Assembly: GCF_001422885.1 (NCBI RefSeq) | Contig: NZ_LMMZ01000001.1 | Span: 686,565 to 750,564, forward strand | Origin: Methylobacterium sp. Leaf104 | GTDB lineage: Bacteria; Pseudomonadota; Alphaproteobacteria; Rhizobiales; Beijerinckiaceae | Direction: 5' to 3' | DNA length: 64,000 nt | Shown: positions 19,240-21,323 of the stretch, piece by piece | Numbering within the stretch: the stretch's first letter is position 1 | Layout of the letters: the number at the start of each line of letters is the position of its first letter | Notes under the pieces: generated by a model | The model's input: the letters and a program-made list of their open reading frames with translations, nothing else | Told to the model about the DNA's origin: nothing | Database searches by the model: none | Made by a program: the position numbers and the translations under genes

Positions 19240-19962
19240 ATGCCGGAGACCACACCGTTTCGCCGCGTCCTCGTGAAACTCTCCGGCGAGGCCCTGGCCG
19301 CTCCCGACGGGTACTGGCTGCACCCCCCGACCCTGGCCGGCATCGCCGACGACATCGCCCGGACCCGCGAGGCGGGCGTGCAGATCGCCCTGGTGGTCGG
19401 CGGCGGCAACATGATCCGCGGCGCGCGCATCTCGGCCGCCGGCTGGATCGACCGCGCCACCGGTGATTCGCTCGGCATGATGGCGACGGTCATGAATTCC
19501 CTGGCCCTGGAGACGGCCCTGAATGCCGCGGGTGTTCCGGCCCGCACGATGTCGGCGGTGTCGATGCCGACCATCTGTGAGACCTATGCCCGCCAGCCCG
19601 CCCTGCACCACCTCGACAAGGGACAGGTGGTCGTCCTCGCCGGAGGCACCGGCAATCCGTACTTCACGACCGACACCGCCGCCGTCCTGCGGGCGGCCGA
19701 GCTGCGCTGCGATGCCGTCCTGAAGGCGACGCAGGTGGACGGCGTCTACTCCGCCGATCCCAACCGCGACCCCACCGCGACCCGTTACGATCGCCTGACC
19801 CATGACGAGGCCATCGCCCGCGATCTCAAGGTGATGGACACCGCCGCCTTCGCACTCGCGCGCGAGAGCCGCCTGTCGATCGTCGTCGGCTCGGTCCATG
19901 CGCCGAGCTCGATCCTGGCGATCCTCACCGGAGCCGCTCCGGCCACCCAGGTCGTCCCGTAA
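19240..19962 (+). CDS. pyrH: UMP kinase
   Basis: 240 residues from MPETTPFRRVLVKLSGEAL. Phosphorylates UMP to UDP. VLVKLSGEAL, IALVVGGGNMIRG, GDSLGMMATVMNSLAL and GGTGNPYFTTDTAAVLRAAEL are the amino-acid-kinase and PyrH-specific motifs. The frame extends upstream to 18946 as a shadow over tsf. frr normally follows pyrH closely; here a BLUF gene intervenes. Confidence 0.96.
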   Translation: MPETTPFRRVLVKLSGEALAAPDGYWLHPPTLAGIADDIARTREAGVQIALVVGGGNMIRGARISAAGWIDRATGDSLGMMATVMNSLALETALNAAGVPARTMSAVSMPTICETYARQPALHHLDKGQVVVLAGGTGNPYFTTDTAAVLRAAELRCDAVLKATQVDGVYSADPNRDPTATRYDRLTHDEAIARDLKVMDTAAFALARESRLSIVVGSVHAPSSILAILTGAAPATQVVP

Positions 19963-20130
19963 GTTGCCTTGCCGGCGCTCGGTCGGCAGGTGTCGCTTCC
20001 CGAGCGGTGAAGTCTCCGGAAGTCGCCGCGGCCTTCCGTCCGAGGCCGATCAGAATTTGTTGAGATCTTTCGGATGTGCTGTCGCATCGAACCGCCTGCG
20101 ATCAGGTGGTACGGTCGCTGAGCACGGTCG

Positions 20131-20607
20131 ATGTCTCTCTCGCAGATTGTCTTCTACAGTCACAACCTTCTGACGTTGCACGGGGGGACTCTGCGCGACA
20201 TGGTGCGGGACATCCTCGCCTCGTGCAGTCGCTACGACCGCGCCTCCGGCTTCACCGGCGCATTGGTCTTCAACGAGAAGTTCTTCCTCCAGGCCATGGA
20301 GGGAGACGCGGTCGCCCTGTCGGACCAGCTCTGGACTCTTGCGGCCGATAGCCGCCACAACGGAATGGTGCTGATCGCGGCGCGGACGATCGAGCAGCGG
20401 GACTTCCGGGGCTGGACCGTCGGCTATGCCGGACATTCCGAACCCCTCGACACCCTCTACCTCCGCTACGGTCCCAAACCGCAGCTCGACCCGACCCGGA
20501 TGTCGCTGGCCGGCGCCGTCGGCCTCCTGCGGGCCTTCACCGAAGTCGAGGGAAACCACTTCGTGCAGCGCTCCGGCCCCGCGGTTCCCGCCGCGGCCAA
20601 GGCGTAG
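20131..20607 (+). CDS. BLUF-domain photoreceptor-like protein
   Basis: 158 residues. Residues 4-98 align with the flavin-binding BLUF fold: start QIVFYSHN (Tyr9), ASGFTGALVFNEKFFLQAMEG (the FLQ glutamine and EG are kept) and the Trp of FRGWTVGY. However, the RNN segment that precedes GITG in typical BLUF domains (Asn31/Asn32 in PixD) reads RYD here, so the flavin-contacting Asn is replaced by Asp. About 50 residues follow with no recognised output domain. Short BLUF proteins usually signal by protein contact. It has its own 168-nt upstream gap and sits between pyrH and frr. Confidence 0.82.
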   Translation: MSLSQIVFYSHNLLTLHGGTLRDMVRDILASCSRYDRASGFTGALVFNEKFFLQAMEGDAVALSDQLWTLAADSRHNGMVLIAARTIEQRDFRGWTVGYAGHSEPLDTLYLRYGPKPQLDPTRMSLAGAVGLLRAFTEVEGNHFVQRSGPAVPAAAKA

Positions 20608-20756
20608 CCGGCAGGGCGGCCGAGGGCGTGAAAGCCTTTCCTGCCCAAACGGCGTGAACGCCATTTGCGACCTACTGGATTTTGGTTCATTGAGGCCCAC
20701 GAACGGGCCCCGGCGGCCCGACCCATTCCCTCAAGTTCGCGTCGGGATAGTCCAGC

Positions 20757-21323
20757 ATGGCAGCCATTCCAGAATTCGACCTGAATGACATCAAGCGTCG
20801 CATGCAGGGCGCCGTGGCTTCGCTCAAGGGGGATCTCGGATCGCTCCGCACCGGCCGGGCGACGCCCAGCATCCTCGATCCGATCCAGGTCGATGCCTAC
20901 GGCGCGATGATGCCGATGGCCCAGGTCGCGACCGTGAGTGTGCCCGAGCCGCGCCTCCTCAGCATCTCGGTCTGGGACCGCGGCATGATCGGCGCCGTCG
21001 AGAAGGCGATCCGCGAATCCGACCTCGGCATGAACCCGCAGACCGAGGGCCAGACGATCCGCCTGCGCGTTCCGGAAATGAACGAGCAGCGCCGCAAAGA
21101 GATGGTCAAGGTCGCGCACAAGTACACCGAGGAGGCGCGGGTCGCCGTCCGCCACGTGCGCCGCGACGGGCTCGACCATCTCAAGAAGCTCGAGAAGGAC
21201 GGCGCCATCAGCGAGGACGACGAGAAGCGTCAGGCGGGCGAGGTCCAGAAGGCCACCGACCAGTTCATCGCCGAGATCGACGGCGTGCTCGCCGCCAAGG
21301 AGAAGGAGATCATGCAGGTCTGA
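20757..21323 (+). CDS. frr: Ribosome recycling factor
   Basis: 188 residues, typical length. Releases ribosomes from mRNA after termination together with [24 protein letters not shown] and the C-terminal [21 protein letters not shown] match the RRF signature; the whole protein is the expected long three-helix bundle plus small beta domain. uppS starts 29 nt downstream. Confidence 0.97.

Follow-up and report, generated by a model that had tools for sequence, protein, structure and literature searches.

The analyzed window is a 64,000-nucleotide stretch of contig NZ_LMMZ01000001.1 of Methylobacterium sp. Leaf104, in which a gene for a short BLUF-fold protein is located between pyrH and frr (Table 1). 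The open reading frame, the Pfam match, and both flanking genes confirm the original prediction of a BLUF-like gene at this site. The protein matches the Pfam BLUF profile over positions 2 to 91 of 92 (E value, 2.2e-16; 60.2 bits against a cut-off of 25), a whole-domain match above the curated cut-off that places it in the BLUF family. No second Pfam domain was found beside BLUF, and an NCBIfam scan of five BLUF proteins at an E value of 0.01 returned no match. The phmmer comparison with structures recovered 3mzi (E value, 8e-11) and 2hfn (E value, 2e-10). The gene is separated from pyrH by 168 bp and from frr by 149 bp, and a scan of positions 19900 to 20800 revealed neither a sigma-70-type promoter nor a terminator. 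The assumption that the organism is phototrophic is a fair one, since a search of its genome for the photosynthetic reaction-centre family gave two matches. The same genome encodes another BLUF protein on contig C6 (L042:1874-2374, plus strand), in which Tyr8, Asn32, and Gln50 are present but Trp91 is replaced by Phe and Met93 by Thr (PixD numbering).

Table 1. Features of the pyrH-frr locus and codons of the flavin pocket in the window
Feature	Coordinates	Strand	Basis
pyrH, UMP kinase, upstream flank	19240..19962	+	Pfam AA_kinase, E 2.5e-38
Phe8-type BLUF-fold protein gene, 158 aa, ATG start	20131..20607	+	Pfam PF04940 and phmmer matches
Codon Phe8, at the photoactive Tyr (Tyr8 PixD, Tyr21 AppA)	20152..20154	+	alignments
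Codon Cys32, at PixD Ser28/AppA Ser41	20224..20226	+	alignment
Codons Tyr35-Asp36, at PixD Asn31-Asn32	20233..20238	+	alignments
Codon Gln54, at the conserved BLUF Gln (Gln50 PixD, Gln63 AppA), kept	20290..20292	+	alignments
Codons Trp95 (kept), Thr96, Val97 (PixD Met93 replaced)	20413..20421	+	alignments
Conserved block 5' of frr, with or without the BLUF gene	20656..20756	+	alignment of 10 loci
frr, ribosome recycling factor, downstream flank	20757..21323	+	Pfam RRF, E 5e-66

Three residues of the BLUF photocycle are absent from the window protein. Phe8 replaces the photoactive Tyr on beta1 (Tyr8/Tyr21 in PixD/AppA), Asp36 replaces the Asn that hydrogen bonds the flavin C4=O (Asn32/Asn45), and Val97 replaces the relay Met on beta5 (Met93/Met106); Thr occupies the position of PixD Arg65. 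The conserved Gln (Gln50/Gln63) and the semiconserved Trp (Trp91/Trp104) are present as Gln54 and Trp95, and the FLQ and GW motifs that the original prediction had pointed out are both there. The same prediction read the Asn31/Asn32 pair of PixD as Tyr-Asp before G-I-T-G. Tyr35 and Asp36 do align at these positions, but the motif that follows is G-F-T-G, and the pair as such is not conserved among BLUF proteins, as the counts below show. No other Asn aligns at the flavin position. The N terminus of the protein (QIVFYS) aligns gaplessly with RLIYSS of PixD and with LVYYS of nearby BLUF proteins, which argues that the adjacent Tyr9 is not the photoactive Tyr; the phmmer alignment to AppA is less clear here, as gaps displace the first strand. 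The best phmmer hit, 3mzi, has Phe at position 8 in the alignment, and it is taken here as the published Y8F mutant of PixD. An AlphaFold2 model from a six-sequence input (mean pLDDT, 42.7; pTM, 0.34) was too poor for an assessment of the pocket.

The residues that define the canonical domain were counted in a phylum sample of 31 BLUF sequences, taken from the 30 best-scoring loci in 398 genomes and thus biased to canonical BLUFs. Tyr8, Asn32, Gln50, Trp91, and Met93 (PixD numbering, here and below) were each found in 31/31 sequences, with Asn at position 31 in only 11, Tyr at position 31 in one, and Cys at position 28 in four. A second alignment of 88 BLUF rows was assembled from genus, order, and class searches; as the queries were the window protein, the Phe8-type alignment A1 (Phe at the photoactive Tyr position in 10/10 rows), and Pfam BLUF in the window's own genome, Phe8 rows are overrepresented in it. 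Hits below 55 bits (among them the remnant in G060 and a BLUF fragment of L002), identical or contained sequences, and sequences with more than three X (L095) had been dropped beforehand. The 88 rows comprise 53 with Tyr8, 33 with Phe8, one with Leu8, and one decayed remnant with a gap at position 8 (L015, from G047), which was excluded from the tree. Asn32 is present in 53/53 Tyr8 rows versus 1/33 Phe8 rows, the latter having Asp (16), Ser (11), Thr (3), Glu (1), Cys (1), or Asn (1) at this position. The Phe8 rows also carry Val93 (30/33) and Tyr31 (27/33), and their Gln position is occupied by Gln (23), Glu (9), or Tyr (1). Cys28 is found in 3 of the 53 Tyr8 rows. Asp32 in a Tyr8 BLUF, sought as a counterexample to the altered-site idea, was seen in none of the 53 Tyr8 rows and none of the 31 sequences of the phylum sample.

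A maximum likelihood tree, from which columns 8, 28, 31, 32, 50, 65, and 93 had been left out, separated 32 of the Phe8 rows, together with the Leu8 row, from all others by a strongly supported branch (99/97), although the tree contains several long branches, including clade member L093 (Phe8, Cys32, Tyr50, and Leu93), and many of its deeper forks are weak. This clade was found here solely in the order of the window genome (Hyphomicrobiales). Its 33 rows share Phe8 (32/33), Val93 (31/33), Trp91 (33/33), and Cys28 (22/33), and none has Asn32; position 32 is Asp, Ser, Thr, Glu, or Cys. The Gln50 position holds Gln (22), Glu (10), or Tyr (1), position 31 holds Tyr (28), His (2), Leu (1), Asn (1), or Glu (1), and the basic residue at position 65 is mostly lost (1 Arg and 6 Lys). 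Gly39, Glu53, Gly54, Asp69, Arg71, Arg86, and Trp91 are invariant. When the clade was compared with 25 of the 53 Tyr8 rows, hand-chosen as near relatives, the most diverged columns were 8, 32, and 93 (Jensen-Shannon divergence, 1.00, 1.00, and 0.95), the value for column 8 being partly circular because rows were sorted by that column, which does not apply to columns 32 and 93. One Phe8 row, L064, falls outside the clade and has Asn32, the Gln, and the Met unchanged. A topology that unites L064 with the clade was not rejected (p-AU, 0.062), so that separate losses of Tyr8 in the clade and in L064 are likely without being certain. Since relatives of the window protein have Ser or Thr at position 32, the alignment indicates that Asp is not the defining event of this family.

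Relatives of the window protein are patchily distributed. The A1 search matched 62 of 397 genomes of the order at an E value of ≤1e-20, a figure that includes Tyr8 relatives, and 5 of 289 genomes of a class-wide sample at 1e-18, namely the window genome, one further genus member, and three others that are all Tyr8. Within the genus, an intact gene is present in 10 of 111 genomes (E value, ≤1e-25), among them Methylobacterium sp. Leaf125 (L117), Leaf108 (L011), and isolate RYN_510 (L006), and it is flanked by pyrH and frr at all 10 loci (L005 to L011 and L117 to L119). The same gene order, with an open reading frame, was found in Methylobacterium bullatum.

A different context predominates in the family coded f11, which contains Oryzibacter and Pleomorphomonas genomes and is called the Pleomorphomonas family here. 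A1 matched 17 of its 20 genomes at 1e-25, Tyr8 relatives counted in, and 11 loci lie between purQ and purL. Nine of these 11 have Glu at the Gln position, and Gln is kept in Oryzibacter and Pleomorphomonas. The purQ-purL Phe8 group (L047 to L050, L052 to L055, L120, L038, and L039) ends in a Pro-rich stretch and a short conserved tail around ETI[KR][VI]V, which is possibly a binding peptide. In three genera of this family (genomes G156, G193, and G449), Phe-type and Tyr-type BLUF copies are neighbours. The Tyr-type neighbour in G156 is the sole one of the three to keep Tyr, Asn, Gln, and Met; that in G193 has Gly for Gln and Leu for Met, and that in G449 has Leu for Met. A NUDIX hydrolase gene adjoins the tandem pair in G156 and G193 (L078 and L096). 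Other BLUFs of the family (L066, L070, L072, and L058) combine Tyr8 and Asn32 with Gly at the Gln50 position. In other genera, the neighbours of clade members include uvrB with catalase, kdpD, a PAS/GAF protein, a cytochrome bd oxidase, and a chemotaxis receptor, and a general tie to nucleotide genes is weakened by these unrelated genes. A scan of viral contigs found one locus, encoding a Tyr-type BLUF (L227).

The insertion site was compared across the genus, where pyrH was found in 110 of 111 genomes. One hundred of these 110 genomes lack an intact BLUF gene, and the stretches downstream of pyrH were compared together for 99 of them and separately for G060. In 85 of the 99, frr starts 101 to 709 bp after pyrH, which bears out the original prediction that the two genes are usually adjacent and are split here. 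No frr was found within 1.5 kb after pyrH in the other 14 (for example, L167 and L214; the stretch in G098 is cut by a contig end), and the adjacency seems to have been rearranged in these 14 Methylobacterium genomes. Frameshifted BLUF remnants remain in the pyrH-frr gap of G047 (L189) and G060 (L040), and G062 (L180), whose pyrH is 99% identical to that of the window, has a possible piece of the 3' end of the gene. These remnants indicate that the BLUF gene was formerly commoner in this part of the genus and has been lost more than once; having been lost in relatives, it is dispensable. The block preceding frr aligns with that of the BLUF-less genomes G054 and G001 at 87% and 91% identity over 143 and 147 columns running into frr. 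It is thus probably frr's own upstream region, left undisturbed by the insert. Because its conservation does not depend on the presence of the BLUF gene, the insert need not disturb frr, and disruption of a pyrH-frr operon by the insert was discarded as a reading on this ground.

Where retained, the gene is constrained. Among the 10 Methylobacterium orthologues, dN/dS was 0.08 to 0.45 over the 44 of 45 pairs whose dS was below 1.5, values that are rough because dS is near 1 in many pairs. The mean pN/pS was 0.32 for the BLUF gene versus 0.11 for pyrH and 0.13 for frr. These ratios indicate that the protein is under purifying selection in Methylobacterium, less constrained than the products of pyrH and frr. 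Decay of a photoreceptor gene whose active site has escaped selection is therefore very improbable: although remnants persist in G060, G047, and possibly G062, and just 10 of the 111 genus genomes have it intact, the reading frame is open in all 10 and in M. bullatum, dN/dS is below 1 even if above that of pyrH and frr, and the same replacement residues, Phe8 (32/33) and Val93 (31/33), recur across families.

On the best reading of these data, the window protein would retain a conserved BLUF fold while having lost the photocycle, and it may be fixed in a single signalling conformation. Published work on canonical BLUFs bears on each of the altered residues. PMC5899715 describes Gln50 and Asn32 as strictly conserved and binding the flavin C4=O, and Tyr mutation as abolishing the red shift; it also reports PixD Y8F as locked in the light-signalling conformation and M93A as functionally locked into the signalling state. 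According to PMC4630285, the BLUF Asn had not been the subject of any available functional study by 2015. The loss of Tyr8, Asn32, and Met93 together in one clade points to a light-blind protein, and it is probable that the window protein lacks a BLUF photocycle. The replacements of Tyr8 by Phe and of Met93 by Val, which the original prediction missed, matter more than the Asn pair. Its proposal that an altered flavin site changes or abolishes the photocycle is thus partly supported by the alignments, which strengthen it through these two further exchanges and do not sustain its emphasis on Asp.

The sequences show that this clade of short BLUF proteins exchanged Tyr8 for Phe, Asn32 for Asp, Ser, Thr, or others, and Met93 for Val, while the Trp, the residues of the fold, and in most members the Gln were kept. 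Without the Tyr, proton-coupled electron transfer along FAD, Gln, and Tyr would be blocked and light switching lost, and the core and C-terminal helices may be held in one conformation, perhaps a lit-like one, from which the protein would engage partner proteins constitutively, in the manner of other short BLUFs once switched. As a whole, this account of a light-blind BLUF-fold member with its photoactive Tyr exchanged, a fixed conformation, and a constitutive partner has, in our judgment, a slightly better than even chance of being right. The fixed, perhaps lit-like, conformation is a more tentative element; it is suggested by the engineered Y8F and M93A forms of PixD, an argument that transfers the behaviour of mutants of a single, distant protein. 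The loss of Asn32 and, mostly, of the basic residue at position 65 argues against FAD binding by the window protein, and the several other conserved residues that remain argue for it. The adjacency of Tyr- and Phe-type copies in three genera, together with the tree, suggests that the Phe-type BLUF probably arose by duplication of a Tyr-type gene. A further step would regard the clade as a natural family of BLUF pseudo-photoreceptors, duplicated and stripped once of Tyr, Asn, and Met, which would serve as constitutively lit-like subunits, either pairing with a photoactive partner or taking its place. We consider this extension rather unlikely, as the picture of a photoactive partner is weakened by the alterations in the Tyr-type neighbours of G193 and G449. 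The family still retains the gene in clade members that have Glu for Gln.

Two other explanations accept a functional protein and differ on what its pocket does. The protein might remain a photoreceptor by another route, with Trp95 or Tyr35 donating an electron to flavin and a conformational change ensuing without the usual red shift. Potential donors exist, as Trp91 is retained throughout the clade and Tyr occupies position 31 in most of its rows; PMC10799861 describes quenching of the flavin by electron transfer from Trp in YnF mutants, and PMC4630285 notes that weak light signalling persists in some variants devoid of the Tyr or Gln. However, AppA Y21F, in which Trp still quenches flavin, is stated in PMC10799861 not to be photoactivatable, and Tyr31 is neither present in all clade rows nor absent from ordinary BLUFs (1/31). 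With Met93, Asn32, and mostly Arg65 lost as well, and Gln missing from one subgroup, such a route is quite improbable. Alternatively, the pocket could have been co-opted for a different ligand, for example a nucleotide or flavin in a given redox state, which would make the protein a metabolite-responsive regulator. The loss of the flavin-binding Asn32 and of most Arg or Lys residues at position 65 is consistent with this, as are the nucleotide-gene neighbours (pyrH at 10/10 Methylobacterium loci and purQ-purL at 11 loci of the Pleomorphomonas family) and the NUDIX genes beside two tandem BLUF pairs. Yet the neighbours elsewhere are unrelated, a nucleotide context in two lineages may be due to chance, and Asp69, Arg71, Glu53, and Gly54 stay invariant in the clade; ligand reuse is thus unlikely, and a light-blind BLUF fold is the reading we prefer.

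Such a light-blind family would have consequences for how BLUF proteins are annotated and studied. A bare Pfam BLUF label counts these proteins as light sensors, although it is the Tyr-Gln-flavin switch that defines BLUF domains. A published census pattern that is based on the pairing of Tyr and Gln (PMC4844311) does not match the window protein; it drops 23 of the 33 Phe8 rows, passes the other 10 through chance residues, and misses 3 of the 53 Tyr8 rows. No natural Tyr-less, Asn-less, or light-insensitive BLUF appeared in the titles and opening abstracts of the open-access literature, searched partly by exact phrase, and by sequence the window clade appears to be an altered BLUF family that departs from the canonical domain at Tyr, Asn, and Met. 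With these three positions changed together, the clade offers a natural test of the separate roles of residues in flavin binding, switching, and signal transmission. Should the proteins be trapped in a lit-like state, they could help to identify the output partners of short BLUFs. Under the pseudo-photoreceptor extension, the locking reported for the Y8F and M93A forms of PixD would have become fixed in nature.

Among known systems, the nearest in the tree are the Tyr-type short BLUFs of the same order (for example, L065, L067, and L071), which are single-domain proteins of similar length and, unlike the window protein, keep Tyr8, Asn32, Gln50, and Met93. PixD (Slr1694) and Tll0078 share with it the fold family, the length class, and the places of the Gln and Trp. 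The PixD match spans residues 1 to 130, and Tyr8, Asn32, Met93, and Arg65 of PixD correspond to Phe, Asp, Val, and Thr. The BLUF domain of the antirepressor AppA shares the fold (39 bits by phmmer) and has Tyr21, Asn45, Gln63, Trp104, and Met106 along with extra domains, whereas the window protein keeps only the Gln and Trp of these in a single domain; by analogy, an AppA-like antirepressor action of the window protein is a possibility.
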